Below are positions 11,126-45,863 of a stretch of 64,000 nucleotides of DNA, piece after piece. Under the pieces are notes generated by a model, which was not told the DNA's origin, made no database searches, and saw only the letters and a list, made by a program, of their open reading frames with translations. The position numbers and the translations under genes are program-made. The first letter of the stretch is position 1; each line of letters starts with the position of its first letter. Source of the stretch: Arthrobacter sp. CDRTa11 (GTDB lineage Bacteria > Actinomycetota > Actinomycetes > Actinomycetales > Micrococcaceae); NCBI RefSeq assembly GCF_026427775.1, contig NZ_CP044532.1:2418001-2482000 (forward strand), written 5' to 3'.

Positions 11126-11180
11126 GCCGAGGCCCTATCCGGGGGCAGTGAACGGCTGATGAACGCCGGCAGAAGTACCA

Positions 11181-11609: not shown

Positions 11610-11686
11610 CAGCCAAGGGTAGCCAGCCGTGATCCTGAACGGGCCGGCGCTAACCCAGAATTCACCCCGAGTTCGCTTTGGGACGG

Positions 11687-14435: not shown

Positions 14436-14471
14436 CCCCACGCTGGCCGCCCAATACCCACCTAGGAAACG

Positions 14472-15802: not shown

Positions 15803-15920
15803 TGCCGCGCTCTCACGTGCCCGAGCCCGCTGACCCCTGTCCTCCAAAGCGCGCTGGGATAGCCAGCCCCCTCGATCCTGTTGGCCTCCTAAACGACACC
15901 TACCAAATCGAAAGGTTCTC

Positions 15921-16685: not shown

Positions 16686-16700
16686 AAGGGGCCAAAGGCC

Positions 16701-17609: not shown

Positions 17610-17704
17610 CAACTAGAGCGCATCTGCCCCGATGAACGGATTACACGCCTTGGTACAGGGCGTGCCGCAAGCAGCACCCCGTTACGCAAATAAAGGAAGA
17701 GCAA

Positions 17705-18433: not shown

Positions 18434-18471
18434 GGAGCACGCGCTGGAACACATTTCATTGGTAAAGATCT

Positions 18472-18493
18472 CCTATAGGATTTCCAATAGTAT
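18472..18493. promoter_or_regulatory. Tandem CCTATA-type operator upstream of the FAD dehydrogenase operon
   Basis: CCTATAGG (itself palindromic) and CCAATAGT start 12 bases apart, about 30-50 bases before the ATG at 18521. Same spacing and similar core as at 13384, 24427 and 25646. Confidence 0.55.
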
Positions 18494-18520
18494 TATCACC
18501 AACTACGAAGGATCATCACC

Positions 18521-21039: not shown

Positions 21040-21042
21040 GTT

Positions 21043-28226: not shown

Positions 28227-29165
28227 CTAAGGGGTTAGGACGAGCTTGCGGGGCGCACCCTGCTGCTGAAGCTCCCACGCCCTTTGGCAGTCGGCCAGCG
28301 GAAGGGTCATCGTGTCGACGGCCAAAGCTCCGGTGGCCGCGAGGCCTGTCAGCTGCAGGTAGGCCTCGCGCCGGACCTGCGCCGGCGGATCCATGTGGGC
28401 GAACCCGAGGAGCTCCAGGCGGGCTGCGCGGACGATGCCGGCAGGCAGTTCAAGGGTTGCGCCTGCGGACTGGCCGATCTGGACGTGGCGGGCGCCCCGG
28501 GCAGCTACGTGCATAGCGGCAAGGGCTGGTTCTCCCCATACCGGGTCAATAATGACGTCGAATCCGCTGTCACCGACCGTGTTGCGGAAGGCGGCCACGA
28601 GGTCGGTGTCCGGGCTAATGGTCACGGTGGCATCGGCGCCCCGTTTCCGGGACAGGGCGAGGCGGCCCGGGTCACGGTCGGCAGCGACCACCGTTGCCGC
28701 GCCGAGGGATTTGGCGAGTTGGACGGCGATGGAACCCAGTGCACCGGTTGCGCCGAGCACCAGCACGTTCTGGCCCGGCTGGAGCCCGGCCCGCCAGGTG
28801 AGGGCCAGCCAGGCGGCAAGTCCGGTGTTGCCGAGCGCGGCCGCGGTAACGTCGTCCACGTCGTCCGCGAGGTCCAGCAGGTCCTCCTCGGCCACAACGG
28901 TGCGTTCGGCCCAGGAACCGTGCGGCGAAACCGGTGAGGTGAAGAAGACGCGACGTCCGGCGGAGGTCCTGCCCACGCCGTCGGCGCCTATCACGTACGG
29001 CATGGTGCCGGGATCTCCGTATGCACCCGAGGCCTTGGCCAGATCGAGATGATGTACCCCGGCCGCGGCAACCTCGATGACTGCAAGGCCGCTGTGAGGC
29101 TCCGGCTCATGGAAATCGTCGTACGTGGGGACTGTTCCGGTCTGGGTCAGAACGGCTGCCTTCAT
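28227..29165 (-). CDS. MDR-family NAD(P)H-dependent oxidoreductase (zinc-independent)
   Basis: A 312-residue quinone-reductase-like protein. The N-terminal domain has MKAAVLTQTGTVPTYDDFHE and VIEVAAAGVHHLDLAKASGA; the cofactor domain has GQNVLVLGATGALGSIAVQL and AATVVAADRDPGRLALSRKR. No zinc ligands are visible. The ATG at 29163-29165 has AAGGAG six bases upstream and defines the start; the longer frame does not. It is the last gene of the LacI-controlled operon 28227-34543 and follows an FAH gene by 28 bases. Confidence 0.83.
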   Translation of the reverse strand: MKAAVLTQTGTVPTYDDFHEPEPHSGLAVIEVAAAGVHHLDLAKASGAYGDPGTMPYVIGADGVGRTSAGRRVFFTSPVSPHGSWAERTVVAEEDLLDLADDVDDVTAAALGNTGLAAWLALTWRAGLQPGQNVLVLGATGALGSIAVQLAKSLGAATVVAADRDPGRLALSRKRGADATVTISPDTDLVAAFRNTVGDSGFDVIIDPVWGEPALAAMHVAARGARHVQIGQSAGATLELPAGIVRAARLELLGFAHMDPPAQVRREAYLQLTGLAATGALAVDTMTLPLADCQRAWELQQQGAPRKLVLTP

Positions 29166-29193
29166 GGTCTGCTCCTTAGAATCTGGTGGGGTG

Positions 29194-30132
29194 TCAGGCT
29201 GGCTGGTCGGTGTCGGCGGGAATGATCTGCACGCTGATGGATCCAAGGCCGCTGATCCGTCCCTCAAGCTGGTCTCCGGGGTGCATCCAGGTTCCGGTGC
29301 TGAGGCCAACACCGGCGGGAGTTCCCGTGAGCACAACGTCGCCAGGTTCGAGGGTCACATGCTCGCTGATCAGGGAGACCAGCTCGGGAACAGACCAGAT
29401 CAGGTCCGACGTGTTGGCATTTTGCCGCAGCTCTCCGTTGAGCCAGAACTGCAGCTGGAGGTTGGTGTCGTCGATGAAGCGGGCCGGCACAATGCCCGGA
29501 CCAAGCGGACAGCTGTCGTCGAAGACCTTGCCGCCGAAGAGGTCGAATTTGACCAGGTGCTTGGGGTGGCGCTGCCAGTCACGGGCCGACAGGTCCAGGG
29601 CGATGGTGTAGCCTGCGATGTGCTCACGGGCCCGCTCCACCGGGATGTGCCGGCCGCGCCGGCCGATGACAAACGCCAGTTCGAGTTCGTAGTCGAACTT
29701 TTCCGTCTGGCTGGGGTACCTTACCGCTTTGCCTTGGCCGACGAGCGTGGTGCTGGGCGGTTTAAGGAAGAAGACCGGAATGTTGTCTTCCTTCGAAAAG
29801 CCGGCATGACCGCCGTCGTTGACCACGTGGTCGTAATAGTTGGCGCCGGCGCAGATGACCTTGTTCGGGTACTGCAGCGGCGTGAGCCAGTCTTCGGGCC
29901 GGGCTGGCTCAGGCACGTGACCTGCCCCGCTGCCGGTGAGGGTTTCGACGGCAGCGAGGAGCCGAGGCTCGGAGGTCTCCCAGTTGGCGAAGACGGTCAT
30001 GAGCCCGCCCGCCGGATTGGCGTCGAGAACCTCCGGTGCGACGTCGGCGAGTCTGTACAGGGGACCGTCAGGGAGCCGGAGCACAGGAGTGGGCACTCCG
30101 TCGATCCGAACGGTGGACAGGGAAAAGGTCAC
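29194..30132 (-). CDS. Fumarylacetoacetate hydrolase (FAH) family protein
   Basis: A 312-residue FAH-fold enzyme. The signature CAGANYYDHV is at 94-103. Metal ligands are E149 and E151 in DYELELAFVIG and D180 in ALDLSARDW, and VVLTGTPAGVGL is in the C-terminal core. It starts at a GTG overlapping the stop of the kinase gene (30129-30132) with GGAG upstream. It could cleave or tautomerise the 2-oxo acid product of this operon. It is one of two FAH genes in this operon, and the two differ strongly in sequence. Confidence 0.86.
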   Translation of the reverse strand: MTFSLSTVRIDGVPTPVLRLPDGPLYRLADVAPEVLDANPAGGLMTVFANWETSEPRLLAAVETLTGSGAGHVPEPARPEDWLTPLQYPNKVICAGANYYDHVVNDGGHAGFSKEDNIPVFFLKPPSTTLVGQGKAVRYPSQTEKFDYELELAFVIGRRGRHIPVERAREHIAGYTIALDLSARDWQRHPKHLVKFDLFGGKVFDDSCPLGPGIVPARFIDDTNLQLQFWLNGELRQNANTSDLIWSVPELVSLISEHVTLEPGDVVLTGTPAGVGLSTGTWMHPGDQLEGRISGLGSISVQIIPADTDQPA

Positions 30133-31175
30133 CTGGTCTGCTCCTTCATGGGTGTCGCGCCGGCCGCTGGAGCGCCTGCCATCTGCATCCATTCCTTGAG
30201 GACCGTGTCGAGGGCCGGTGCCGGTCGGGCCAGCAGGTCCCTCGCGGCGTTGCGGACCTGGCCGCGTTGCTCGGGTGTCAGATACTCCACCGGCGAGGCT
30301 CCGTCCACCCGGGCCAGGGCGAGCAGCGGCAGCAGGGCCGCGGCGCGCGCCGTCAGGTCCGGGGCAGGCTCCCAGTCAATATGGCGGGCATATCCGTCCA
30401 GCAGCATGCGGGCGGAGCTGTGCAGCTGCGCCGTATGGTCCGGCAGGATGATCGCCTTGAGCAGCAGGTGGTTCAGGCAGAATGCGACGTCGAACGCCGG
30501 GTCACCGAACCAGCCGCACTCGGCATCGAGCAGCACCGGACCGTCCGGACCCAGGAGGATGTTCTTGGGACTGACGTCGCCGTGAACCACCGCCAAGTGA
30601 GTGCCGGCGGTTCTCTCGGCGATGACATCGATCCGGTCCGCCAGGTCCGGGTTGGCACGTGCAGTGACCCGGAAGTACGGCTCGATGCGCAGGGCGTCGA
30701 AGTTGCTGTCGGTGCCGAACTTGCCCGGGAGCGAAAGATCCTTGGTGCTTGCTGAGTGCAGCCTGCCGAGGAGGTCGCCGACGGCGTGCGCGGCAGCGGG
30801 GTCAACCTGTCCGGTGAGGAGGCTGTCCTTCCACACCGGGTAGTCCTCGGCGGGGAGGAACTGCATGGCGAACAATCCGGCCTGCCCATCGTAGGCGAGG
30901 ACCTGTGGGACCTGTGTGGGAGCGACGGTCCCGGCAAACTGCAGCCAATCGTATTCCACGCGGTTGCGGGACAGGGGAGCGAGCCATTCGTGAGCCACCT
31001 TCAGCCGGGCCAATGCTCCCTTGACGCACAGCGTCCGGCCCGGCAGCGACACTTGCCAGAGGTCCGAGCTCACGCCGCCGGTCAAGGGACTCAGTATCGC
31101 CTCTTCACCCGGCTCCATCAGCCCGTGACGGAGCAGGAACTCCTGCACCCGCTCCTGGGGTCCGGCGACGTTCAC
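30129..31175 (-). CDS. APH-fold small-molecule kinase (aminoglycoside phosphotransferase family)
   Basis: A 348-residue kinase-fold protein. The catalytic loop HGDVSPKNILL holds D200 and N205, and LLDAECGWFGDP holds the metal-binding D217. A conserved lysine may be K52 in LCVKGAL, and LTGGVSSDLWQV forms the glycine-rich loop. The family also phosphorylates choline, homoserine, methylthioribose and fructosamines, so antibiotic resistance is not implied. It overlaps the enolase-like gene upstream and the FAH gene downstream by four bases, so all three should be made together. A role in phosphorylating a hydroxy acid that the enolase-like enzyme then dehydrates is my inference. Confidence 0.8.
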   Translation of the reverse strand: MNVAGPQERVQEFLLRHGLMEPGEEAILSPLTGGVSSDLWQVSLPGRTLCVKGALARLKVAHEWLAPLSRNRVEYDWLQFAGTVAPTQVPQVLAYDGQAGLFAMQFLPAEDYPVWKDSLLTGQVDPAAAHAVGDLLGRLHSASTKDLSLPGKFGTDSNFDALRIEPYFRVTARANPDLADRIDVIAERTAGTHLAVVHGDVSPKNILLGPDGPVLLDAECGWFGDPAFDVAFCLNHLLLKAIILPDHTAQLHSSARMLLDGYARHIDWEPAPDLTARAAALLPLLALARVDGASPVEYLTPEQRGQVRNAARDLLARPAPALDTVLKEWMQMAGAPAAGATPMKEQTR

Positions 31176-32476
31176 CGGCCACCGTCCGCGGTCAAGGCCA
31201 GGGCCGGCAGGTTCCTGAAGTCCAGCGTGGGGTCCTCGGCGATGCGCACCAGCTGGTTGTACTTGGCGAGCCGCTCAGAGTTCCTGACGGACCCGATCTT
31301 GATCTGCCCGGCGGCGCTGCCCACAGCCAGATCTGCCAGGAAGTCATCTTCGGTCTCACCGGAGCGCGCCGATACCACCGGGGCGTAACCAGCGGCGCGC
31401 GCCTCGGCCACCACGTCAAGGGTGCCGGTCAGCGTGCCGTTCTGGTTCACTTTGACCAGGACGCCGTTGGCAACACCCTGGGAGATGCCTCTGGCCAGCC
31501 GTTCGCTGTTGGTGGTGAACAGGTCGTCGCCAATCAGCCTGATCCTGTGACCTAGGCGTTTGGTCAGGGTCTGCCAGCCGTCCCAGTCGTCTTCGCCGAG
31601 CGGATCTTCAATTGAGACGATAGCGAAGCGGTCAACCCATGAGGACACCATGTCAATCATTTCGGCTGTGCTGAGGTGCCGTTCCTGCCGTCGCAGGTGG
31701 TAGTCACCTGCCTCACTGTCGTACAGGGATGCGGCAGCGACGTCGATGGCGATGGCTATGTCTGTGCCGGGCCGCAGTCCGGCGGCCAGAATGGACTCGG
31801 TGATGAGCTCGAGAGCCTCCTCGCCCGTTCGGCAGCCAGGGCTCAGTCCGCCCTCGTCCGCCAACAGCGTGGGCAGTCCCCGTTTGGCAGAAAGGGCAGC
31901 CGCAGCCGCACGGACACGTGATGTGAGCTGGATGGCTTCGAGTGCGGACGTTGCCGCGACTGGTACCGCGAGGAAATCCTGGACGTCCATGCCGCGGCCT
32001 GCGTGGAGGCCGCCGGAAAGGATGTTGACCATCGGCATCGGAAGCACGGGCTCGTCGACGCCTGCGAGCTGGGCGATCCTGCGGTACAGCGGCAGTCCGC
32101 TGGCCACAGCGGAGGCGCGGCAGACCGCCAGTGAGGTTCCCAGCACCGCGTTTGCGCCGAGCCGCGACAGTGTGGAGGTTCCGTCCAGGTTCCGCAGCGT
32201 TTCGTCGATGGCCCGCTGGTTGTCGACATCGTGGCCGCGGAGCGCCGCGGCGATCTCACCGTTCACATGCTCGACGGCGGAGGTGACGCCGAGGCCGTCG
32301 AACACCGATGCGTCTCCATCGCGCAGTTCGTGGGCCTCGTGCGTACCGGTGGAGGCTCCGGAGGGAACCGATGCCCGGGCGCTGACGCCGTTTTCGAGGG
32401 TGATGTCCACCTCGACGGTGGGGCGGCCGCGGGAATCGAAGATCTGGCGGCCGTGGACGGTGCGGATGATGCTCAC
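31172..32476 (-). CDS. Enolase homologue with altered active site
   Basis: A 434-residue full-length enolase-family protein. Retained are the SGASTG loop (39-44), H158, E208 (ADEGG), D245, E290 (SIEDP), D317/D318 (GDD), K342 (VKVNQ), R371-S372 and K393, so the metal site and the proton-abstracting lysine are intact. Two near-invariant positions differ: the canonical SHRSGETED is SARSGETED (A370), and QEFM becomes QDFL (D167). QIGSLTET is also QNGTLTGT. It is embedded by four-base overlaps between a 2-hydroxyacid dehydrogenase and a kinase, not in a glycolytic context. It probably acts on a different phosphorylated hydroxy acid, like specialised enolases of secondary metabolism. A functional glycolytic paralogue cannot be excluded. 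Confidence 0.88.
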   Translation of the reverse strand: MSIIRTVHGRQIFDSRGRPTVEVDITLENGVSARASVPSGASTGTHEAHELRDGDASVFDGLGVTSAVEHVNGEIAAALRGHDVDNQRAIDETLRNLDGTSTLSRLGANAVLGTSLAVCRASAVASGLPLYRRIAQLAGVDEPVLPMPMVNILSGGLHAGRGMDVQDFLAVPVAATSALEAIQLTSRVRAAAAALSAKRGLPTLLADEGGLSPGCRTGEEALELITESILAAGLRPGTDIAIAIDVAAASLYDSEAGDYHLRRQERHLSTAEMIDMVSSWVDRFAIVSIEDPLGEDDWDGWQTLTKRLGHRIRLIGDDLFTTNSERLARGISQGVANGVLVKVNQNGTLTGTLDVVAEARAAGYAPVVSARSGETEDDFLADLAVGSAAGQIKIGSVRNSERLAKYNQLVRIAEDPTLDFRNLPALALTADGGR

Positions 32477-33462
32477 AATGACACTCCTGTGGCGAGGACG
32501 GAAGGGGTGTTACAGGGATAGTTTGCGGGTTCGCCGCGCAGGACGCGGACCACTTCCTCGGCAGCGCTGCGCCGCAGGTCGATCACCGAAGCGTCGGAGG
32601 CGAAAGCGATGTGTGGTGTAACGATCACGCCAGGGTGGGCCAGCAGCCCGGCGGGAACCGTGGGCTCCTCCTCCAGGACATCCAGTCCTGCTCCGCCGAG
32701 CTTGCCTGACTGCAGGGCGGCCAGCAGTGCTGCGGTGTCTACCAGTCCGCCGCGGCTGACATTGATCAGGAAGGCATCCTGCGGTAGCAGGGCCAGTTCG
32801 CGGGCCCCGATCAGGTGATGTGTCTGCGGGACCAGGGGAGCGTGCAGGACCACGATGTCGCTTGCGGCCAGGAGGCCGTCCAATGCCATTACCTCACTAC
32901 CGCCGGTGTCGGCCGGGGGGTGCGGATCGCTGATCACCACGCGGGCTCCGAGCGCCTTGAGCTTGGCTGCAGTGGCTCTGCCGATGCGGCCGTATCCCAC
33001 AACGCCGCAGGTCAGGTTGGAAAGGCGGCGAAGCCGGGCACCGGCGGGGTTCCATCGTCCGGCTCGTACCTCGCGGTCCGCGGCCACCAGGCCGCGCGTC
33101 CAGGCAAGGGCCAGCCCGACGGCGTGGTCGGAGACCTCCTCGACGCAGTAGTCCGGCACATTGGTTACCTGCACGCCGCGATCCGTGGCAGCGGGCACGG
33201 CAATGTTGTCCAGGCCAACGCCCATCCGGGCAACAACCCGCAAGGGGGCCGAGGAAGCGATTGCTTCGGCGGACACTGTTGCCCAGCAGGTGAGGATGGC
33301 GGAAGGCTGGTGTTCGGCGATCAGGGCGTCAATGGCCTCAACCGGTGCGGGGTCGGCCGGGCCGGCGACAAGACGGAAGCCGGCGTCTTCGATGATGCCG
33401 CGTTCGATACTGTCGTCGGGCCACGCCCGGTCTGTCAGCAGGACTGTTTGCTGCAGCGTCAT
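32473..33462 (-). CDS. D-isomer-specific 2-hydroxyacid dehydrogenase
   Basis: A 329-residue NAD-dependent enzyme of the phosphoglycerate dehydrogenase family. GVGLDN (81-86), the Rossmann motif GYGRIG (156-161), catalytic R237 in NVSRGGLVDTAAL, an acidic residue in DVLEEEP (264-266) and H284 in VTPHIAF are all present. There is no ACT regulatory domain, and the length matches glyoxylate/hydroxypyruvate and D-3-phosphoglycerate-type members. It is overlapped by the enolase-like gene and preceded by an FAH gene 13 bases upstream. It may reduce a 2-oxo acid to the hydroxy acid used by the kinase, or run in reverse. Confidence 0.88.
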   Translation of the reverse strand: MTLQQTVLLTDRAWPDDSIERGIIEDAGFRLVAGPADPAPVEAIDALIAEHQPSAILTCWATVSAEAIASSAPLRVVARMGVGLDNIAVPAATDRGVQVTNVPDYCVEEVSDHAVGLALAWTRGLVAADREVRAGRWNPAGARLRRLSNLTCGVVGYGRIGRATAAKLKALGARVVISDPHPPADTGGSEVMALDGLLAASDIVVLHAPLVPQTHHLIGARELALLPQDAFLINVSRGGLVDTAALLAALQSGKLGGAGLDVLEEEPTVPAGLLAHPGVIVTPHIAFASDASVIDLRRSAAEEVVRVLRGEPANYPCNTPSVLATGVSL

Positions 33463-33475
33463 GAGTCTGCTCTCC

Positions 33476-34543
33476 TTAGGTGGTGGTTAGGCCTGAAGCG
33501 GCCAGGTTTGAGTGGGATGGGCTGGGAAAAGATCTGGGACCAACGAACCGGGTGTTTTGCTCGCCGAGCCCGGTTACTGAAGCCCTCACGGTGTCCCCGG
33601 GACGCAGGAAACGGCCGTGGTGGATGCCGAACCCGGCGGGGGAGCCGGTGCAGAGCAGGTCTCCGGGGCGAAGGCGGGTGTGTTGGGACAGGTAGGACAG
33701 CTGTTCGGGAATGGTGAACACCATGTCGTCGGCCGTGTCGTCCTGCATGGGCGAGCCGTTGAGCGAAAGCTGAAGCCGCAGGGCGGACGGGTCCGGGACC
33801 TGCCAGGCGGGCACGAACCAGGGTCCGAGTGGCAGGGATCCCCGCATGCCCTTGCATTGCAGCCAGTCCGAGGCCAGCGCAGGCAGGTCCGGCCGGACGA
33901 TGCGGGAGCGGATGGTCAGGTCGTTGACCACGCAGTAGCCGGCGATCACTGCCTCAGCCTCCGGCACAGTCAAGCGGGAGCCTGAACCTCCGATGACGGC
34001 ACCGATTTCCACCTCCCAGTCCAGGGTGTCCACCTCCGCTTCCAGGGCCAGCTCGCCAACAGCGGGGCCCACCCTGTCGTTGCTGGTCAGGCAAACATAG
34101 GGGCTGCCGTCCCGGCGCCGCTGGTTGAGCGCCTGGGTGGTGGCGGCCGCCAACTTCGCGGCGTCGGCGGGGCCGCCGGCATCCACTGCGGCCTCGATGA
34201 CCTGCCGGCGGTAGTTGCCGATGGTGCAGAACACCTGCGTGGGCTGGAAGGGAGCCTCCAGCCGCAGCGAAGCCACTGGAACACCCTCTTCGCTGATGGT
34301 CGCCGACGTCTGCGGGAGCTCGAGGAGCTGCCGAAGCTCCGCGTGAACGGCTCCCCAATGCCCGATCAAATCGGTGACTGAGGTAAACCTCGCGCAAGGC
34401 CAGCGCCCGGCCCAGGTTTGCAGGGGAAGCGCCCGGCCGCTGTGCATCAGCCAGATGGCCGGGGTTTCCTCGGGGAGGCCTGCCTGGGCAAGGACGATTC
34501 CAGCTGGAGCGAGGGCGTCGTCGAGGTTGTCTTCTTCAAGCAT
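33476..34543 (-). CDS. FAH-family protein, first gene of the LacI-controlled operon
   Basis: A 355-residue protein; the N-terminal 95 residues form the variable domain and the rest is the FAH core. QVFCTIGNYRRQVIE replaces the usual CAGxNYxDH signature, so the arginine-rich variant may bind a different acid. Ligands E177 and E179 (DWEVEIGAVIG) and D208 (VNDLTIRS) are kept. It heads the six-gene minus-strand operon down to 28227. A TGCTAACGATAGCA operator lies 3-16 bases upstream of its start, where a bound repressor would block initiation. Confidence 0.83.
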   Translation of the reverse strand: MLEEDNLDDALAPAGIVLAQAGLPEETPAIWLMHSGRALPLQTWAGRWPCARFTSVTDLIGHWGAVHAELRQLLELPQTSATISEEGVPVASLRLEAPFQPTQVFCTIGNYRRQVIEAAVDAGGPADAAKLAAATTQALNQRRRDGSPYVCLTSNDRVGPAVGELALEAEVDTLDWEVEIGAVIGGSGSRLTVPEAEAVIAGYCVVNDLTIRSRIVRPDLPALASDWLQCKGMRGSLPLGPWFVPAWQVPDPSALRLQLSLNGSPMQDDTADDMVFTIPEQLSYLSQHTRLRPGDLLCTGSPAGFGIHHGRFLRPGDTVRASVTGLGEQNTRFVGPRSFPSPSHSNLAASGLTTT

Positions 34544-34545
34544 AA

Positions 34546-34559
34546 TGCTAACGATAGCA
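34546..34559. promoter_or_regulatory. LacI-type operator TGCTAACGATAGCA (site 1)
   Basis: A 14-bp near-palindrome with central CG, immediately upstream of the FAH gene at 34543. The same sequence recurs at 39370 and, inverted, at 38113 and 39459. Confidence 0.75.
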
Positions 34560-34666
34560 CAAACCTTTGGAAATACCAGACGCTTAGCCGACTAAATGGG
34601 CCAGCGGAAGGGAAGTGCTGGATGTCGCTTGCATCCCTTGACGCCGCGTATCAAAGCACGAGATAG

Positions 34667-34680
34667 TGCTAACGATTGCA
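34667..34680. promoter_or_regulatory. LacI-type operator TGCTAACGATTGCA (site 2)
   Basis: One-mismatch copy of the operator, about 20 bases before the cupin GTG start at 34701. It is on the opposite side of the divergent promoter region from site 1 (121 bases apart). Confidence 0.7.
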
Positions 34681-34700
34681 CAAGAGGAAGAGGATTTTTC

Positions 34701-35243
34701 GTGACTGTACGCAGAGTGGTGACCGGCATGGACGAATCTGGAAAGTCGGTATTCGTCTCCGACGGACCCGTGCCCAATAGCCATGCCTTCGAGAGTATGC
34801 CGGGGCAGGCTCAGGTCCGGGTCTGGTTTACGCCGGACCTGCCGTCCGGAACCATCCCCGAAACGGAGCCCACTGACAACCATGGGCCCGTGGTGCCGGG
34901 CCCCGGCGGGGCAAGCTTCGTGATTGTGAGTTACGCACCGGAATCCGTAATGATGAGCCCGGGATTCGATCCGGACGCCGCAGGGCAGGAGATGGCCTCC
35001 TACGCTCCTGATCTCGCCGAGGTGTTCGAGCCGGACGGGATGCACCGCACGCGCAGTGTCGACTATGGAGTGGTGCTGGAAGGGGAGCTGTGGCTGGAGC
35101 TCGACGACGGCGCGCAGGTGCTGCTGACGCAGGGTGACACCGTTGTGCAGCTCGCCGCACGCCATGCCTGGCGGAACAAGACACAGGCGCCGGCAACGGT
35201 GGCGTTTGTGCTCACCGGCGCCGGCGCCTCAGTGGTGTCCTGA
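34701..35243 (+). CDS. Cupin-domain protein
   Basis: A 180-residue protein ending in a single conserved beta-barrel cupin: HRTRSVDYGVVLEGELWLEL (motif 1-like, G-x5-H variant) and LTQGDTVVQLAARHAWRNKT (motif 2). The metal-ligand pattern is incomplete, with only the second histidine clear. The GTG start is chosen because GAGGAAGAGGA is upstream. It is transcribed divergently from the FAH operon under operator site 2 and ends at a pair of strong hairpins. It might bind or isomerise a pathway intermediate. Confidence 0.75.
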   Translation: MTVRRVVTGMDESGKSVFVSDGPVPNSHAFESMPGQAQVRVWFTPDLPSGTIPETEPTDNHGPVVPGPGGASFVIVSYAPESVMMSPGFDPDAAGQEMASYAPDLAEVFEPDGMHRTRSVDYGVVLEGELWLELDDGAQVLLTQGDTVVQLAARHAWRNKTQAPATVAFVLTGAGASVVS

Positions 35244-35314: not shown

Positions 35315-36424
35315 TCAGGGAATGACGACATAGTTGCTGAAGCCACCGCGCGGGTCCTTCAACCGCCCTGAGATTGCATTGTTGACGTCCGACAGCGGGA
35401 ACGCCTCGGTCTCAAGGTAGGTGAGGTCCAGGGTGCCGGTCTCGATCATGTCTGCCATCTCCTGGCCCTGGGCTGCGGTGAACCAGTTCGAGCCGATGAT
35501 CTGCACCTGCTCGTCCATCAGCCATTTCATGTCCACCGGAACCTCGTCAGCAACTCCGCCGACGTTCACCACGCGGCCGCCGCGCCGGACCCCGCGCATG
35601 GAATCCACCATGGTTGCGGCGTCCGCCCGGGCCCCGAGCGCACTGATCACGAAGTGGGCGCCGTCGCCGCGTGTCTGCGCCTTGGCCCACTCCCCGGACG
35701 ACTGCCCGCCGAGGTTCATGACTTCTATCCTGTTCGGCGCCAGTGCCTTCACGCGCTGAAGCAGCTCCTCGTTGCGCCCCGTGCCCAGGATCTTTGCAAC
35801 GCCCATGCTCAAACAGAGCACAGTCGCGGCCACGCCCAGGGTGCCGGTAATGCCGTCTATCAGGCCCACTGTGCCGGGTCCGGCATCTGCCAGGCGGAGC
35901 GCCCCGTAAGCGGTGCCGATGTAGCCAAAACGGGCTGCCAGCTCAAACGGAAGGTTGTCCGGAATCTTAACCAGGGCCTGCTGCGGCGCGGTCATGAACT
36001 CACTGAACCCGCCGTAAGGGTAGAGATCGAAGATCCGCTGACCGTCGAGGGACGTGCTGAAGTATCCGTTGAGGGTGTAGTAGCGGCAGCGGCTGGGGGT
36101 TCCCCCTGAACAGGCGTAGCAGCTGCCGCAGGAGCGGAGCGGGCTGACGTACACCCGGTCACCAGGTTTGACGTTGATGACGGACTCTCCGACCTCTTCC
36201 ACCACCCCGGTGGGATCAAGCCCGAAGATCGCCGGGAAATTGGGGATGGGCTGGTGCGGAAACCAGGTGGGCCAGTTGTTGATTACGTTGGCCATGTTCG
36301 GCACAATGCCGACGGCCTTGACCCTGACCAGTACGTCGGTGGGTCGGGGCTTGGGTACTTCGATGGTGTCGATCGACATCGGGTCGCCGATCTGATGCAG
36401 TCTGGCTGCGCGCATCGTCGCCAT
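35315..36424 (-). CDS. Alcohol dehydrogenase-like MDR enzyme with structural-zinc motif only
   Basis: A 369-residue MDR protein. Cysteines C99, C102, C105 and C113 in RSCGSCYACSGGTPSRC fit the structural zinc lobe. The catalytic-zinc GHE is replaced by GLDPTG and the usual first catalytic cysteine is absent (VGIVPNMANV). The Rossmann part is GTVGLIDGITGTLGVAATVL. This mixture, structural zinc without the catalytic site, is uncommon. AAGGAG precedes the ATG. It is the third gene of the operon 38082-35315 and lies downstream of the dioxygenase and CMD genes. Confidence 0.8.
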   Translation of the reverse strand: MATMRAARLHQIGDPMSIDTIEVPKPRPTDVLVRVKAVGIVPNMANVINNWPTWFPHQPIPNFPAIFGLDPTGVVEEVGESVINVKPGDRVYVSPLRSCGSCYACSGGTPSRCRYYTLNGYFSTSLDGQRIFDLYPYGGFSEFMTAPQQALVKIPDNLPFELAARFGYIGTAYGALRLADAGPGTVGLIDGITGTLGVAATVLCLSMGVAKILGTGRNEELLQRVKALAPNRIEVMNLGGQSSGEWAKAQTRGDGAHFVISALGARADAATMVDSMRGVRRGGRVVNVGGVADEVPVDMKWLMDEQVQIIGSNWFTAAQGQEMADMIETGTLDLTYLETEAFPLSDVNNAISGRLKDPRGGFSNYVVIP

Positions 36425-36478: not shown

Positions 36479-37021
36479 CTACTTGCGGTAGCTGTCCTCA
36501 AGTTCGATGCCGAGCAGGCCCATTATCCGTACGCCTGAGTTGTACCAGGCGATGGTCAGCGTGAGCTCCACCATCTGCTGGTCATCGAGGTGCTTGGCGG
36601 CGGCCGCCCAGCTGGCATCGGACACGTTCACGTTGATGGTGGATTCCCGTGCCAGCGCTATCACGGCGCGTTCGGCGTCATTGAACAGCTGAATGCTGGT
36701 GCCCTCAGCCACTGCAGCAAGCTGCTCATCCGTGAGGCCGGCTTTCCGGCCATGTGACTGGTGGTGCGCGATTTCATATTCAGAGCCGGTGGCATGGCCC
36801 ACGGACAGGATGGCCAGCTCCCGCAGCTTGGGACTCAGCACGGAGCTGTCACGCATGGCGTTGGCATAGGAGAGGAACGCGTCGAGCAGGACGGGGGCAT
36901 TTGCCAGTGAGCGGAAGATATTGGCAGTGGGCATTTTGCGCTCCGCCTCGATGCGGTCCCACAGCGGCTGCTGGTGGACCGAAGCGGCGTCGTTGCGGGA
37001 CAGGGAAGGAACTCGGGACAT
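36479..37021 (-). CDS. Carboxymuconolactone decarboxylase family protein
   Basis: A 180-residue all-helical CMD-fold protein. SPKLRELAILSVGHATGSEY then EIAHHQSHGRKAGLTDEQ is the family core (E/H proton relay with HHQSHG). The CxxC of AhpD-type peroxidase members is absent, so it is not an AhpD reductase. The C-terminal AWYNSGVRIMGLLGIELEDS is typical of catabolic CMD paralogues. It lies between the dioxygenase and MDR genes and probably acts on a ring-cleavage product. Confidence 0.83.
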   Translation of the reverse strand: MSRVPSLSRNDAASVHQQPLWDRIEAERKMPTANIFRSLANAPVLLDAFLSYANAMRDSSVLSPKLRELAILSVGHATGSEYEIAHHQSHGRKAGLTDEQLAAVAEGTSIQLFNDAERAVIALARESTINVNVSDASWAAAAKHLDDQQMVELTLTIAWYNSGVRIMGLLGIELEDSYRK

Positions 37022-37080: not shown

Positions 37081-38082
37081 TCAGGGGAGTTGGGGGCTGG
37101 CCAGGAACTTCTCCAGCGTCATGGGGGCAGGACGGACAGCCGGGGACTTCAGCGGGGCGCCGACGAAGGGCGAGGCCTCGAAGTACCACTGCTCCAGGGC
37201 GGGCAGGCCCCAGCGGGCGTTGGTGCTCACCGATGCGGCGTCCCAGCGCACCGGCTCGGTCTCAAGATCGATGGTCTGGTAGTGGCTGTTGAAGACCTCA
37301 ACCCGGTGGCCGTCCGGATCACGCAGATAAGCGAAGAGCATGCCGCCGGGTCCATGCCGGCCGGGGCCGCGTTCCACCTGGTCGCCGTAGCCCAGGATGC
37401 CGGCGAAATCGCAGGCGGTGAAGATGTCATGGCTCTCGGAGACGGTGTAAGCGAAGTGATGGAGGCTTGGACCGTCGCCGGGCACCATGGCCAGGTCAAG
37501 GCAGGTGCCCTTGCGGTACATGAAGGCGCCCACAAGCTCGTCGCCGTACTCGAGGTACTCCGAGTTGCGGAAGCCCAGTTCGCTGTAGAACGCGCACAGT
37601 TCGTAGACGTCGGGCGTGAGCAGCTGGAAGTGGTCCAGTCGCTGGGCGTGGGCGCCTTTGTACTGCTCAAAGTTGATGTGCAGCCGGGGCCTGGTCTCCA
37701 TGGTTGCGCACAGCTCCAGCGGCGTCCCGACAGGGTCTGCGACATGCAGCGTCCGCCCCTGGTGTGGCATGTCCACCCACTCGGCCGGGAGGCTCCGGTC
37801 ACGAAACCAGCGGTAGGCCTTGTCCAGGTCCTCGTCGAAGAAGACTCGGAATCCTATCCGGCGGGCCGTGCCGCCGTCGGCGCTCTGCTCCAACACCAGG
37901 CTGTGGTGACAGGCCTCCGCCAGGCCCCGCAGGTACACAGTGGAGGAGTCCTCCTCGGTGACCACCAGGCCGAGGACAGTGGTGTAGAAATCACGGCTCG
38001 CCGCAAGGTCAGCCACATTCAGCCGCAGGTGGCTGGTTCGGGTGATGTTGAACGGCGGACGTAGATCGACCGGTGGCAGCAT
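37081..38082 (-). CDS. Extradiol dioxygenase, homoprotocatechuate 2,3-dioxygenase-like (VOC), with altered second-sphere residue
   Basis: A 333-residue two-module VOC enzyme similar in layout to Brevibacterium homoprotocatechuate 2,3-dioxygenase. Iron ligands are H151 (RLDHFQL), H209 (SLHHFAY) and E262 (HRVEVFN), and RGPGRHGPGG is the expected loop. The position equivalent to the catalytic second-sphere H200 (GTVHDTAL in the known enzyme) is L195 here (GTCLDLAM). The start has GGAG 12 bases upstream. It heads the operon with CMD and MDR genes, under operator site 3 (38113). The loss of that histidine suggests an altered substrate or chemistry. Confidence 0.83.
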   Translation of the reverse strand: MLPPVDLRPPFNITRTSHLRLNVADLAASRDFYTTVLGLVVTEEDSSTVYLRGLAEACHHSLVLEQSADGGTARRIGFRVFFDEDLDKAYRWFRDRSLPAEWVDMPHQGRTLHVADPVGTPLELCATMETRPRLHINFEQYKGAHAQRLDHFQLLTPDVYELCAFYSELGFRNSEYLEYGDELVGAFMYRKGTCLDLAMVPGDGPSLHHFAYTVSESHDIFTACDFAGILGYGDQVERGPGRHGPGGMLFAYLRDPDGHRVEVFNSHYQTIDLETEPVRWDAASVSTNARWGLPALEQWYFEASPFVGAPLKSPAVRPAPMTLEKFLASPQLP

Positions 38083-38112
38083 ATTTGTCCATCTCCAATG
38101 GGATCATCACGG

Positions 38113-38126
38113 TGCTATCGTTAGCA
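38113..38126. promoter_or_regulatory. LacI-type operator TGCTATCGTTAGCA (site 3)
   Basis: Reverse complement of TGCTAACGATAGCA, about 30 bases upstream of the dioxygenase gene start at 38082 and downstream of the LacI gene stop. Confidence 0.72.
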
Positions 38127-38179
38127 TCCGCATTATGGGTGTCTGCGCAGGAGGCGCAGCTTCTTTTAGGTGATGCGGT

Positions 38180-39211
38180 TCAGGCAGAGCGCTCGCGCGA
38201 TGCCGCGGGAGGTGCAGCAGTGCTGCCCCGCGGCACCAGCCAGCCCACTGACGCGGACTCGTAGGGGTCATTCCCGGCGGGTGGATTGTTGAGCCTGCGA
38301 ATGAACCAGAGGCCGCAGGAGGTGGCCACATCTCCGATGGGCAGGCTGACGGTAGTCAGGCCGGGTCCCCACCAGGAGAATCCGCTTTGATCGCCGAAGC
38401 CCACCACAGACAATTCCGTGGGGACGTCGACGCCCATTTCCAGCAATCCATCCAGCAGCCCCACAGTATGGAGGACGGAGCCGAGGACGACGGCGGTGGG
38501 CGGGCTGGGCCGGTTCAGTAACCGGCGCGCCGCCTCCCGCGCATGCTCGGGGGACGCCGGAGGGCCCAGTTCGATCAGCTGTGAGCGCTGTGGAATGTTC
38601 TTTTCCCGCAATGCCTGGCGGTAGCCTTCGAGCCGCTCCCGGCCGGTGGGCAGGTCGGCGGGCGCTCCGATGTAGGCGATGCGGGAGTGGCCCAGATCCA
38701 GCAGGTGTGTGGTGGCATCCTTGAGCGCCCTGCGGTCATCAAGGCCGAACCACTGGGCACCCAAGGATGAATGTTTGCGCAGCAGCTGGACGTGCGGCAT
38801 TCCGCTCAGCATATTGATCGAATCGCTGTGTGGATTGGGGGTGGGGGCGATGACAACCCCCGCCGCATGGCTCGCCGACAGCTCACGAAGGTGGCGCCTC
38901 TCAATGAGCCTGTCATCGAATGTCTCGGCGAGCATCAACTGATAGTCCTCACCGGCCATGATTGCGGACAGTTCGTGGGCAATCGTGTAGTAGAAACTGT
39001 TTCGAATGTCCGGGATGACCAGCCCTACGACGTTGCTCGGAGCCCCGCGCATCATCCGGGCAGCATGGTTGCCTACGTATCCCAGCTCGGAGGCTGCCTG
39101 GCGGACCCGCGCCTTGGTCTGGTCGCTGATACGGGCGTCATCCGCCAGCGCCCGGCCAACGGTGGAGACCGACAGCTGCAGATGTACAGCGATATCCTTG
39201 GTCGTGACCAT
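38180..39211 (-). CDS. LacI family transcriptional regulator
   Basis: A 343-residue repressor. The N-terminal helix-turn-helix is VTTKDIAVHLQLSVSTVGRA (1-20), the hinge helix follows (HAARMMRGAPSNVVGLVIPD), and the periplasmic-binding-type core includes IAHELSAIMAGEDYQLMLAE, DDRRALKDATTHLLDLGHSR and VVGFGDQSGFSWWGPGLTTV. AGGAGG precedes the ATG. It is surrounded by five TGCTAWCGWTAGCA palindromes with the central CG typical of LacI/GalR operators, at four transcription units. It most likely represses module D until a pathway metabolite binds. Confidence 0.92.
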   Translation of the reverse strand: MVTTKDIAVHLQLSVSTVGRALADDARISDQTKARVRQAASELGYVGNHAARMMRGAPSNVVGLVIPDIRNSFYYTIAHELSAIMAGEDYQLMLAETFDDRLIERRHLRELSASHAAGVVIAPTPNPHSDSINMLSGMPHVQLLRKHSSLGAQWFGLDDRRALKDATTHLLDLGHSRIAYIGAPADLPTGRERLEGYRQALREKNIPQRSQLIELGPPASPEHAREAARRLLNRPSPPTAVVLGSVLHTVGLLDGLLEMGVDVPTELSVVGFGDQSGFSWWGPGLTTVSLPIGDVATSCGLWFIRRLNNPPAGNDPYESASVGWLVPRGSTAAPPAASRERSA

Positions 39212-39369
39212 CGTTCCTCCTGTGCAAGCCGGTAAGCGGATACTACCGGGAACTGGGCTGGGATCAGTGTACTGATGTGGCTTGGCCTGGCACGCCCATC
39301 CTTTGACGCCAGTCCGCGTGAGGCTCCTTGGTGCCAGGATTCAAACCAGCCGGCGTCGCCACTTCCTGA

Positions 39370-39383
39370 TGCTAACGATAGCA
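39370..39383. promoter_or_regulatory. LacI-type operator TGCTAACGATAGCA (site 4)
   Basis: Exact copy of site 1, in the lacI/MFS divergent region. Confidence 0.75.
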
Positions 39384-39458
39384 CCGATGGGCCTGCAGTC
39401 AACACGGAAGAGTTTTCCGAGCTTCTGGCAAGTCGACGCTTGACTTGCCGCAGCCGGG

Positions 39459-39472
39459 TGCTATCGTTAGCA
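39459..39472. promoter_or_regulatory. LacI-type operator TGCTATCGTTAGCA (site 5)
   Basis: Exact inverse of site 4, 89 bases away, and about 230 bases upstream of the MFS start. Confidence 0.75.
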
Positions 39473-39698
39473 CAAGTTCCATATCCCGCCGCATCAGCTG
39501 CACAGACTTGCGTTACGCAGAATGGCAGCCCGTACAGTGCGGCGCACCAGGTGGTCCACCTGACCAGAGGGAGGAGACTTCCGGGTGTGATCAGGATCGG
39601 CCACCTGCCGTAGTTCATGTAATTCCGCTGATCATCGGTTAATTCCAGAGCCGATTAAATCCACATGAGAACGCAACTCTCTCGACTAGGAGACAAAG

Positions 39699-41072
39699 AT
39701 GTCCCACTCGACCCCCTCCAGCACAGGCCAGGCCCCGGCTGCAGCTGGATCTGCCTCCGGGCCCGCCGTGCCCACCTACCCTGAACCCATGGACGCCATT
39801 TCGATGGATGCGATTCCGTCCAGCCCCGCACCATCACGGGTCAAGGACAACCCCGAGGGCATGCCCACCAAGGTGGTTGCTGCCGTTTCGCTCGGGGTGC
39901 TGGCAGTGACCTTTATGCTCAATGCGATGGACAGGCAGGTCTTCTTTCCGCTGCTGGGAACTATCAGCAAAGAGAACGGGTTCAGCCTGCAGGCCGGCGG
40001 ACTGCTGGCTACAATCTTCACCCTGGGGATGGCCATCGCAGGCATCCCTGCCGGGTTCCTGGTGGAGCGCTTCTCACGCAAAGCCGTCCTGATAGTCAGC
40101 ATTGTGATCTATTCCCTGGGCACCCTGGCCACGCCGCTTGCCTCCTCGTGGGCCGATATGGCCGTGTACCGAATCATCTCCGGGCTGGGTGAGGGGATGC
40201 AGGCCGCAGCGCTGTTCGCCGCGGTGGGCGCGTTCTTCCACCATCGCAGAGGCCTCGCCCTGGGCATACTGGGCTTCGCGTTCGGACTGGGTGCAACATT
40301 TGGACCCGCCCTCGGCATCATGTTCGCCGGCCAGTTCGGAACCTGGCGGGCCCCCTTCATCATTTTCGGGGTGATAGGGCTGCTGCTCGCAGTGGTCGTA
40401 GCGTTCACTGTCAGCCGCAAATTCACCGAACGGGCGATCAGCCTGACCGGCGTCGAAGGATCCTATGACTACATGCCGGCCAAGGCCTACAACCGCAACT
40501 CCATTGCGATCGCGGCGGCAGCGGGCTGCGGCTCCATCGCCCTCTACGGCTTCCTGGGCCTGTACCCCACGTTCCTGACAACTCAGCTGGGCATTTCCAC
40601 CGGAGAGTCAGCAGTGGCGCTGAGCTTCGTGGGCCTGGGAGGCCTGGCCGGCCTGCTCGGCGGCTGGATCGGGGACCGGATCAACCAGAGGCTGCTGCTG
40701 ATCGTTTCCCTGGTGGTGATGGCGGTGCTCGGTGTGCTGATCTACCAGGTCCAGGCATCGTTCGCCTGGCAGTGCGTCTTCGCCTGCCTCATGGGTGTAT
40801 TCGGTACCGGCGTCTTCTTCCCCAACATGAACAGTGCCATCCAGCGGGCAGTCCGTCCGCACCAGGTGGGCCGTGCCGCCGGTCTTTTCGTCACCTGCTA
40901 CTACGGATCGGCCGCCTTTTCCGGCCTCCTGTTCGCAGCTCTGGTGCCGAGCGTCGGTTGGCAAGGAGCCGGCCTGCTGCAGGTGACGGCGTTGCCGCTG
41001 GCGGCCGCCGCCATCATGCTGATCGTCCGGACGCCACTGTTCAACAACGCGGTCCGCGCGGCCGGTCACTGA
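39699..41072 (+). CDS. MFS transporter, paralogue of the carrier at 2091-3392
   Basis: A 457-residue membrane carrier with a 55-residue hydrophilic leader, then about 12 helices. LNAMDRQVFFPLLGTISKEN, LVERFSRKAVLIVSIVIYSL, VYRIISGLGEGMQAAALFAA and GDRINQRLLLI match the other MFS protein segment by segment, so the two are clearly related carriers. AGGAGA lies about 7 bases before the ATG. It heads the operon leading to the CoA-dependent genes and has two LacI operators upstream. The transported compound is probably an organic or aromatic acid. Confidence 0.86.
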   Translation: MSHSTPSSTGQAPAAAGSASGPAVPTYPEPMDAISMDAIPSSPAPSRVKDNPEGMPTKVVAAVSLGVLAVTFMLNAMDRQVFFPLLGTISKENGFSLQAGGLLATIFTLGMAIAGIPAGFLVERFSRKAVLIVSIVIYSLGTLATPLASSWADMAVYRIISGLGEGMQAAALFAAVGAFFHHRRGLALGILGFAFGLGATFGPALGIMFAGQFGTWRAPFIIFGVIGLLLAVVVAFTVSRKFTERAISLTGVEGSYDYMPAKAYNRNSIAIAAAAGCGSIALYGFLGLYPTFLTTQLGISTGESAVALSFVGLGGLAGLLGGWIGDRINQRLLLIVSLVVMAVLGVLIYQVQASFAWQCVFACLMGVFGTGVFFPNMNSAIQRAVRPHQVGRAAGLFVTCYYGSAAFSGLLFAALVPSVGWQGAGLLQVTALPLAAAAIMLIVRTPLFNNAVRAAGH

Positions 41073-41105: not shown

Positions 41106-42401
41106 ATGACTGACACCGGCTCACGCGGTCCGTCAGCAGGCGCAATGGCGGGGATCGTCGTCGCAGATTTCAGCAGGGTCCTGGCCGCGCCGTACGCGAC
41201 GATGTTGTTCGGTGACCTTGGCGCCGACGTCATTAAGATCGAACGTCCCGGTTCCGGTGACGACACCCGTCACTGGGGTCCGCCGTTTACCGAAGATCAT
41301 GAGGCGACGTACTTCCTGTCGGTCAACCGCAACAAGCGCTCCTTCACTGCCGACATGTCAGCAGCGGCAGACCATGAGGACCTGGTCAAGCTGATTCGGC
41401 GGGCTGACGTGCTGATCGAAAACTTCCGCCCCGGAACGATGGCACGGCACGGGCTGTCCTACGACGAGATGGCCGCGATCAATCCACGGCTGGTTTACTG
41501 CTCGATCACAGGGTTCGGATCGGACGATGCCGCCGCGGACCTGCCTGGCTACGACCTGCTGGTCCAGGCCGTAGGAGGGCTGATGAGCGTCACCGGGCCG
41601 GCACCCGGTGAACCGGTCAAGGCCGGCGTCGCCCTGGTTGACGTGCTGACGGGGCTGCATGCCGCGATCGGCGTGCTGGCCGCCCTGCGGGCACGGGAGA
41701 CAACCGGCCGGGGCCAGCTTGTGGAGGTCAACCTGCTCAGCACTTTGCTGTCCAGCATGGTCAACCAGAGCGTCGGGTACACCGCAGCGGGCGCGGTTCC
41801 GGGCATCCTGGGAAACCGGCACCCTTCGATCGCGCCTTACCAGCTGTTCCCCGCTTCGGACAGATCGGTGGTCATCGCTGTTGGCAACGACCGGCAGTTC
41901 ACGCAGCTGTGCAGCGCCCTTGGCATTCCCGGGGCAGCGAAGGATCCACGCTTTGCCACCAACACCGCCCGCGTAGCCCACATCGATGATCTCGATCGCA
42001 CCATCACGGCCCGGACCACAGGCCAGACCGCGGACCACTGGTACCGGGTGCTCTCAGCGCATGGGATTCCCTGCGGACCGGTCAATAACATCGCCGAAGC
42101 CTTTGCGATGGCCAGTGAACTCGGCCTCAGCCCGCGCGTAACCGTCGGAGCTGGCCAGGCCAGCTTGAATCACGACAGTTTGAATCACGACAGCCCTAAT
42201 CAGGACAGCGTAGACCTGGCCGCCAACCCGATCACCCTGTCCGACACCCCGGTCTCTTACCGCCGGCGGCCACCCAGGCTTGGGCAGCACGCCGACGAAG
42301 TGCGTGCCTGGCTCAACAGCCTGCCCGTCACAGAACCCCCGCAACAGCACAGCAGCAACAACGACAGCAACAACCACCAGCCATTGGGAGCACACCCGTG
42401 A
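41106..42401 (+). CDS. Family III CoA transferase (CaiB/BaiF), succinyl-CoA:glutarate CoA-transferase-like
   Basis: A 431-residue class III transferase. IVVADFSRVLAAPYATMLFG, DLGADVIKIERPGSGDDTRH, NRNKRSFTADMS and the catalytic-aspartate segment GYDLLVQAVGGLMSVTGPAP are present. Near the C-terminus three short repeats (SLNHD-SLNHD-SPNQD) and a Q/N/S-rich tail precede the stop. The next gene starts inside its stop (GTGA). Pairing with a glutaryl-CoA dehydrogenase-like gene suggests that it activates glutarate or a homologous diacid, as SUGCT does. The diacid itself is inferred. Confidence 0.85.
   Translation: MTDTGSRGPSAGAMAGIVVADFSRVLAAPYATMLFGDLGADVIKIERPGSGDDTRHWGPPFTEDHEATYFLSVNRNKRSFTADMSAAADHEDLVKLIRRADVLIENFRPGTMARHGLSYDEMAAINPRLVYCSITGFGSDDAAADLPGYDLLVQAVGGLMSVTGPAPGEPVKAGVALVDVLTGLHAAIGVLAALRARETTGRGQLVEVNLLSTLLSSMVNQSVGYTAAGAVPGILGNRHPSIAPYQLFPASDRSVVIAVGNDRQFTQLCSALGIPGAAKDPRFATNTARVAHIDDLDRTITARTTGQTADHWYRVLSAHGIPCGPVNNIAEAFAMASELGLSPRVTVGAGQASLNHDSLNHDSPNQDSVDLAANPITLSDTPVSYRRRPPRLGQHADEVRAWLNSLPVTEPPQQHSSNNDSNNHQPLGAHP
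42164..42208 (+). repeat. Short tandem repeat coding SLNHD-type units
   Basis: Three imperfect 15-base units (AGCTTGAATCACGAC-like) encode SLNHD, SLNHD and SPNQD near the C-terminus of the CoA transferase. They probably arose by slippage and are unlikely to be functional. Confidence 0.7.
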
Positions 42402-43561: not shown

Positions 43562-43638
43562 CCGCCGTGAATCCGCAGGCCTGGCCTCCGCGGAGGCCGG
43601 GCACCGCAGTCCTGTATGCCTATGTGAAGGGAACTTTT

Positions 43639-45777: not shown

Positions 45778-45863
45778 CACTGCCCCCGGCTAGCTCTGCC
45801 CCCCCGAGCTGGTCCTGGGCAGACGAAACCAGCCATCCATTCGCCCCACTCAAAGGAGAAGAA

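Follow-up and report, generated by a model that had tools for sequence, protein, structure and literature searches.

The window considered here is the whole 64,000-nucleotide stretch from the soil bacterium Arthrobacter sp. CDRTa11, whose genome is a single contig of 5.16 Mb. It contains a six-gene operon (28227..34543) that joins an altered enolase (ENO) and a kinase (KIN) to a D-2-hydroxyacid dehydrogenase (DHD), two FAH-family enzymes and a medium-chain reductase. We argue that DHD, ENO and KIN are probably the core of a conserved catabolic module, in which the enolase lineage probably has a changed leaving-group site. The six genes are present, all on the minus strand, and their Pfam families agree with those named in an earlier reading of the DNA without database searches (the sequence-only reading):

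28227..29165, minus strand: MDR2, medium-chain reductase, quinone reductase-like, ATG start (PF00107)
29194..30132, minus strand: FAH2, FAH-family, HpaG-like (PF01557, 8.1e-65, scored on the open reading frame from 30192)
30129..31175, minus strand: KIN, APH-fold small-molecule kinase (PF01636, 4e-18)
31172..32476, minus strand: ENO, enolase paralogue with S154/D167/A370 replacing canonical N/E/H, core of the module
32473..33462, minus strand: DHD, D-isomer 2-hydroxyacid dehydrogenase, proposed 3-substituted-pyruvate reductase (PF02826, 2.5e-55)
33476..34543, minus strand: FAH1, FAH-family, proposed C-C hydrolase (PF01557, 1.4e-51)

The three four-base overlaps that had been noticed are found at DHD/ENO (32473-32476), ENO/KIN (31172-31175) and KIN/FAH2 (30129-30132). 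The last depends on a GTG start for FAH2 at 30132, which is preceded by AAGGAG. The alternative is a longer FAH2 open reading frame from an ATG at 30192, and its overlap with KIN would be 64 bases. MDR2 scores 120.6 bits against TIGR02824, below the cut-off of 296.8.

The enolase homologue is indeed altered. It has S154, D167 and A370 where canonical enolases have N, E and H; we take these to be N155S, E168D and H373A in yeast numbering, and H373 presumably has its role near the leaving group. The three replaced residues would surround the leaving group, and all three are now smaller. ENO shares with canonical enolase (phosphopyruvate hydratase, EC 4.2.1.11) the fold, base, acid, metal ligands and phosphate-binding Arg and Ser, and it passes TIGR01060 with 504.1 bits against a cut-off of 300. 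It differs in the three replacements, in belonging to a separate lineage and in sitting beside an APH-fold kinase. An alignment of 99 locus rows plus the window was examined, which includes two extra copies of the window and one of a Rhizobium plasmid. The triad is S/D/A in 60 rows, G/D/A in 10, G/D/G in 1 and N/E/H in 29. The G/D/A rows were all obtained via a kinase search, except L013. E168 and H373, the signature of the glycolytic 2-phosphoglycerate enolase, are E and H in 29/29 canonical rows and D and A in ENO. The catalytic base K345, the acid E211 and the metal ligands D246, E295 and D320 are kept in the window's ENO and in all 70 S/D/A and G/D/A rows. H159, R374 and S375 are likewise kept (70/70), and the phosphate ligands are retained. 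S39 is replaced by Ala in three S/D/A rows and in 10/10 G/D/A rows. When a tree was built from 94 rows, the 29 canonical enolases fell together on one side of a branch supported at 100/100. The annotated members of the altered lineage that were examined are named enolase or phosphopyruvate hydratase, save a distant one in Enterobacter.

KIN scores 66.5 bits to PF01636 (gathering threshold 23.2), the only family returned by a Pfam scan, and has the catalytic motifs of the APH fold. The glycerate kinase families PF02595 and PF13660 do not match it. Across 25 sequences the invariant residues are K52, E74, H198, D200, N205, D217, E219, R70, W115, K116, R163, H236 and K240. The predicted model has a pLDDT (predicted local distance difference test) of 92.7, and structure comparison places 5-methylthioribose kinases as its nearest solved structures. 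KIN fails the equivalog of that enzyme (TIGR01767), with 52.4 bits against a cut-off of 275. Aligned with 5-methylthioribose kinase (MtnK) and other APH-fold kinases it is 16% identical, and W115-K116, R163 and LAR-DG are invariants of its own.

GTDB genome contigs were scanned with the window's enolase, and the conservation set is the best 80 loci of a longer list, with 81 enolases. Within these loci, drawn by enolase similarity alone, a kinase lies no more than 3 kb from 48/54 altered enolases and from 0/27 canonical ones (Fisher p 5e-16, uncorrected for relatedness). DHD is within the same distance of 24/54 altered enolases. The sequence-only reading had counted the grouping as accidental should the enolase homologue have ordinary 2-phosphoglycerate activity and the cluster not be conserved in other genomes. 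Conservation in the same order was looked for and found: three Arthrobacter loci and one Parafrankia locus among the 80 have a near-complete cluster in the conserved order, and among the matches listed the closest named enolase loci are from Arthrobacter. Outside those loci the DHD-ENO-KIN core moves with different partners, and several Burkholderiales have ENO-KIN without DHD. Genomes of Acidobacteriota and Chloroflexota, a planctomycete and an acidimicrobial genome have a more distant kinase (29-38% identity) ahead of the enolase. Plasmid searches added Rhodococcus, Rhizobium, Cupriavidus, Paraburkholderia, Sphingobium, Roseibium, Paracoccus, Azospirillum, the haloarchaeon Halomarina and others. 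The enolase-kinase pair thus ranges over Actinomycetota, Pseudomonadota, Acidobacteriota, Chloroflexota and a haloarchaeon. Within the host's own family the kinase is in 1/149 sampled genomes (the host itself) and an enolase is in 148/149, which implies that the module is an accessory.

Some loci of this kind have features of their own. One Streptomyces cluster (L013:10001-16666) has both enolase sub-types, S/D/A and G/D/A, with a single kinase. The Halomarina plasmid (L098:2265-16885) has the kinase and altered enolase among genes for galactonate dehydratase, a dihydrodipicolinate synthase-family aldolase, sugar dehydrogenases and RraA-family proteins. Four Acidobacteriota loci (L063, L065, L067 and L081, about 9000-12600) share a conserved neighbourhood with an altered-triad enolase, a kinase and a gene that by eye resembles a sulfatase gene. 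A plasmid of Enterobacter chuandaensis (L087:6193-16826) has a distant kinase (37%) beside an enolase-like 'hypothetical protein' with a G/D/G triad and K at the place of E211. Its neighbours are U32 peptidase, aminotransferase, oxidoreductase and MFS genes, and the whole resembles a biosynthetic cluster. Three Caulobacteraceae loci with altered enolases and no kinase in the stretch (L029, L039 and L080) have other neighbours in common, namely clusters c34, VOC23 and CoAT. At L033:10161-10983 the kinase adjoining the altered enolase matches as two separate pieces, which is either a broken gene or a sequencing error.

The LacI operator proposed for the operon was confirmed, with one site directly upstream of FAH1. 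The palindrome RTGCTAWCGWTWGCAC, allowing up to 2 mismatches, has 10 matches in the window (5 sites, both strands) against 0.18 expected from shuffles. With up to 1 mismatch RTGCTAWCGWTWGCAY has no site elsewhere in the genome, and a backwards control has none either. The features that go with the operator are:

34545..34560: LacI operator, immediately upstream of FAH1
34596..35243, plus strand: CUP, cupin-like, true start probably inside the open reading frame (PF07883 weak, 25.6 bits against a cut-off of 27.2)
34666..34681: LacI operator, FAH1/cupin divergent region
35315..36424, minus strand: ADH, zinc medium-chain dehydrogenase, a conserved neighbour in relatives (PF08240, PF00107)
36479..37021, minus strand: CMD, carboxymuconolactone decarboxylase-family protein (PF02627)
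37081..38082, minus strand: HPAD, extradiol ring-cleavage dioxygenase, homoprotocatechuate 2,3-dioxygenase-like (TIGR02295, 295.3 bits, under the cut-off of 321.4)
38112..38127: LacI operator, upstream of HPAD
38180..39211, minus strand: LacI-family regulator (PF00356, PF13377)
39369..39384: LacI operator, between the LacI and MFS genes
39458..39473: second LacI operator between the LacI and MFS genes
39699..41072, plus strand: MFS transporter, the regulon's divergent unit (PF07690; arrangement repeated in L003-L005)
41106..47048, plus strand: type III coenzyme A (CoA) transferase, acyl-CoA dehydrogenase, FadJ-like protein and thiolase, proposed route of the other, glutarate-like diacid fragment

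The LacI-family regulator and the palindromic operator, repeated ahead of several units, mark this as a putative LacI regulon. Since operator sites also lie before HPAD, in the FAH1/cupin region and between the LacI and MFS genes, we count the six-gene operon as one unit of a larger predicted regulon. The others are HPAD-CMD-ADH, the cupin, LacI and the MFS-CoA transferase-acyl-CoA dehydrogenase-FadJ-like-thiolase unit, which reaches 47048. Judging by their spacing, the genes within each unit are presumably co-transcribed. CUP is found at five of the best 80 loci (L003, L004, L005, L007 and L009).

The ring-cleavage side resembles parts of known pathways. HpaD-like dioxygenase and HpaG-like FAH enzyme are shared with the homoprotocatechuate (4-hydroxyphenylacetate) meta-cleavage pathway. 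However, HPAD fails the HpaD equivalog (its best solved match is 1f1r, 219.3 bits), FAH2 has 144.3 bits to TIGR02303 HpaG against a cut-off of 276.4 (nearest solved 1gtt), and the proposed diacid side is glutaryl-CoA-like, not succinic. The scanned genes of the window include no aldolase of the HpcH/HpaI type. The best NCBIfam match of FAH1 is the 2,4-didehydro-3-deoxy-L-rhamnonate hydrolase, a 2,4-dioxo acid hydrolase, at 115.7 bits. The L-rhamnose pathway has a FAH-family hydrolase of this kind (2,4-diketo-3-deoxyrhamnonate hydrolase), and a Paracoccus FAH beside KIN-ENO also has it as best match with 352.2 bits, but both scores are under the cut-off of 500. The L-rhamnose pathway is not known to have a kinase or enolase of such kind. 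DHD passes the D-isomer 2-hydroxyacid dehydrogenase families (PF02826 187 bits, PF00389 67.3 bits), and its nearest solved structures are phosphoglycerate dehydrogenase and glyoxylate reductase. It is below every hydroxypyruvate/glyoxylate reductase-type equivalog (PRK13243 177.7/455, GhrB 138.2/492, PGDH 211.6/454). The window's CoA-transferase has succinate-glutarate CoA-transferase as its best match (377.8 bits, below the cut-off of 750), and the one in the Rhizobium cluster is nearest to the same enzyme (567.3 of 750 bits). In Sphingobium an operator lies 53 bases before a 3-hydroxybutyryl-CoA dehydrogenase gene, near a gene annotated gcdH. By analogy with homoprotocatechuate, we propose that a phenylpropanoid whose catechol has an adjacent methoxy or hydroxy group as well as a three-carbon acid side chain would yield glutarate and a 3-X-pyruvate, where X is the leaving group.

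The product of the module is probably phosphoenolpyruvate (PEP), judging by the PEP carboxylase (ppc) genes that some relatives have behind the operator or within the gene run. PEP carboxylase was surveyed in 44 records (43 and Cupriavidus), and for matches in 33 genomes nearness was taken from tblastn of the locus stretches (about 10 kb each side). Rhizobium sp. N324 has the run ppc-DHD-KIN; one operator lies 40 bases ahead of ppc, and a second site, with one mismatch, falls between ppc and DHD. Its ppc is over the equivalog cut-off (1133 against 815). In P. viridiflava the run DHD-ENO-KIN-hydroxylase (flavin adenine dinucleotide-type)-DUF4440 protein ends in ppc, which starts 16 bases past the DUF4440 gene; this ppc is over the cut-off with 1088.4 bits, and there is a second ppc elsewhere in the genome. 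In Cupriavidus a ppc over the cut-off (1236.5 bits) is on the module's plasmid stretch, and an exact operator precedes its longest open reading frame by about 590 bases. The fourth, with 992.9 bits to PF00311, is in Rhodococcus pseudokoreensis, where an operator with one mismatch precedes it by about 490 bases. In Sphingobium TomTYG74 a divergent PEP carboxylase homologue annotated 'hypothetical' is directly downstream of the module (L089:12709-15453; 50.6 bits to PF00311). A PEP carboxylase beside L035 was dropped, as the match is weak and on another contig (143,061 bases) than that of L035 (347,885 bases). Weak PEP carboxylase-like matches in two sphingomonad genomes (G176 and G177) were not counted, their nearness to the module not being shown.

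With the gene set, the operator, the altered residues, the kinase linkage and these PEP carboxylases established by computation, we infer every substrate, the direction and X in the following scheme. HPAD would open the ring, and from its product the FAH-family enzymes, with ADH, would release a 3-substituted pyruvate (CH2X-CO-COOH) and, as the other part, a glutarate-like diacid. DHD would reduce the 3-X-pyruvate to a D-2-hydroxy acid, KIN would phosphorylate the 2-hydroxyl, and ENO would take the C2 proton and expel HX to give PEP. If the product is PEP, then the substrate of ENO should be 2-phospho-3-X-propanoate. PEP would join central metabolism, and some relatives carry their own PEP carboxylase. 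The diacid would go through the CoA transferase to a glutaryl-CoA-type beta-oxidation. We regard the conversion of D-2-hydroxy-3-X-propanoate to PEP as likely. With a little less assurance, we think it probable that DHD-KIN-ENO as a whole recovers the three-carbon ring-cleavage fragment as PEP. The kinase-then-enolase idea of the sequence-only reading is half right. The gene set does suit such chemistry on a hydroxy acid that ring cleavage supplies, but the substrate and the loss of water do not hold up as well. Rather than on the ring-cleavage acid, the kinase most likely acts on a three-carbon fragment, the 3-substituted pyruvate once reduced by DHD, because some relatives have ppc behind the same operator or within the gene run. 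Elimination of water is doubtful because the changed residues would be near the leaving group and because an ordinary enolase and two PF02595 glycerate kinases are encoded elsewhere in the host.

Methoxy would be the most likely single choice for X, with methanol leaving, and it is favoured over hydroxy because the host already has that canonical enolase and those glycerate kinases. We hold it tentatively. More tentative by a shade is the full proposal that this sister lineage of enolase could be a methanol-eliminating (ether-cleaving) lyase that, partnered by an APH-fold kinase of its own, converts 2-phospho-3-O-methyl-D-glycerate to PEP and methanol. The evidence is from relatives. One (L012) has a VanA-type Rieske protein with a reductase near the module, and L011 has a 68% relative of that Rieske protein. 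Weaker Rieske matches (26-34%) are at L013, L019, L032, L035 and L042. L035 also has a DesA/LigM-like protein (syringate/3-O-methylgallate O-demethylase-like) at 389.6 bits, for a cut-off of 800. Two modules have genes of formaldehyde oxidation close by: an S-(hydroxymethyl)glutathione dehydrogenase gene directly follows KIN at L045, and gfa and a class III alcohol dehydrogenase gene flank the Rhizobium cluster. An alcohol dehydrogenase beside the L033 kinase was not counted, being closer to the N,N-dimethyl-4-nitrosoaniline-dependent alcohol dehydrogenases (302 bits, where the cut-off is 440).

It must be noted that a number of observations weigh against this reading. The NCBIfam enolase equivalog accepts ENO with a score far above its cut-off. 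Among the altered enolases, 6/54 lack a kinase within 3 kb; for one it is 4.4 kb away, and for five there is none in the stretch (L034 and L041, which are at contig ends, and L029, L039 and L080). A paper on the M. tuberculosis enolase (PMC10619443) has Glu204 performing the step that removes the C3 hydroxyl, has Glu163 and Glu204 proposed to act on the terminal carbon via water, and has Glu163 also contacting the carboxylate. We equated Glu163 and Glu204 with E168 and E211 by residue order. Since the counterpart of E168 contacts the carboxylate in that paper (PMC10619443), its change need not imply a new leaving group.

The evidence on product and leaving group has its own difficulties. PEP carboxylase is near the module in 4/44 records only, three with a LacI operator upstream and one in the same gene run; there is none in the locus stretches (about 10 kb each side) of the other records or in the window. 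In Rhodococcus about 20 kb separate ppc from the module, and the operator of this ppc is in a divergent region that it shares with a MarR gene. The DesA-like protein is at one locus and gfa at one, and most of the Rieske matches have 26-34% identity only. Of 23 places with an over-cut-off class III alcohol dehydrogenase in 41 records, 2 are near the module (L045, and Rhizobium at 14 kb from the enolase), which we call weak. Pyrroloquinoline quinone-dependent alcohol dehydrogenases from six records were compared with the locus stretches for a methanol dehydrogenase near the module, and there was no match. The window matches none of the Rieske, DesA-like, gfa or PEP carboxylase probe proteins, so the arguments for methoxy and for PEP rest on relatives. 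The relatives with O-demethylase-type genes mostly use a different ring-cleavage enzyme. The haloarchaeal and Roseibium-type clusters have sugar-catabolism-like neighbours, and plain glycerate would be a natural product there.

One can imagine a scenario where X is a hydroxyl. The fragment would be hydroxypyruvate and DHD its reductase; KIN would act as a new glycerate 2-kinase and ENO as an ordinary 2-phosphoglycerate enolase, which makes a dedicated hydroxypyruvate-to-PEP route. All three steps have known counterparts, the solved relatives of DHD are of the fitting kind, PEP as the product fits, and sugar-type clusters could deliver glycerate via a 2,4-dioxo acid hydrolase. The known route of glycerate kinase and enolase has the same logic: reduce, phosphorylate, eliminate, with PEP as the end product proposed here too. 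However, the kinase of the module is of a different family, its enolase has changed leaving-group residues, and the canonical parts that the host has elsewhere already cover the route. The same three residues are changed in every kinase-linked enolase examined, which is unexpected if the leaving group is unchanged, and yeast H373 mutants are reportedly less active on 2-phosphoglycerate. We consider a hydroxyl unlikely. We say the same of any other leaving group (chloride, amine, sulfonate, acyloxy or aryloxy) and of a C3 with an extra carbon substituent, which would give a substituted phosphoenol acid. The three smaller side chains would admit many substituents, the clusters are diverse, and the divergent Sphingobium homologue of PEP carboxylase could have a different substrate. 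Yet the O-demethylase-type neighbours in some relatives favour methoxy, and the over-cut-off PEP carboxylases that belong to the regulon or the gene run point to PEP as such, and therefore to an unsubstituted C3.

The module could also be run in reverse, building an O-alkylated or other 3-substituted phosphoglycerate from PEP. Enolase chemistry is reversible, and the distant pair on the Enterobacter plasmid is in a biosynthetic-looking cluster. The transporter, LacI regulation, ring cleavage and beta-oxidation genes argue instead for a catabolic unit, so synthesis is very improbable. That a spare glycolytic enolase simply landed beside unrelated genes is hardly credible. The rarity of the kinase in the host's family, the module being an accessory, speaks for it. 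We reject it on conservation and on the linkage of 48/54 against 0/27: order and overlaps are conserved across several phyla, and one operator set serves the whole cluster.

A search of literature that excluded most subscription papers found no description of the module, so one may yet exist in print. Few glycolytic enzymes are as conserved as enolase, and a lineage of it that has a kinase to itself and a remodelled leaving-group site would amount to a new enzyme function under a housekeeping name. If the preferred reading with methoxy is true, it would be a non-oxidative removal of methoxy after ring cleavage, and could fill a gap in the conversion of methoxylated plant aromatics, and perhaps O-methyl sugars, to central metabolites. 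In some hosts the regulon would have recruited PEP carboxylase for an anaplerotic role. Such genes can be re-annotated simply by checking the three residues, and the operator marks a ready regulon.

Two other regions of the window may be mentioned. Far from the operon, the interval 4824-7167 matches a further FAH-family protein (5246-5986) and, weakly, a VOC dioxygenase-like one (6331-6747), possibly a second ring-cleavage-type unit. A gene run at 13476-23513 has an ABC transporter, an SDR, a flavin adenine dinucleotide-dependent reductase, a metallo-beta-lactamase-fold protein and a thiamine pyrophosphate enzyme.

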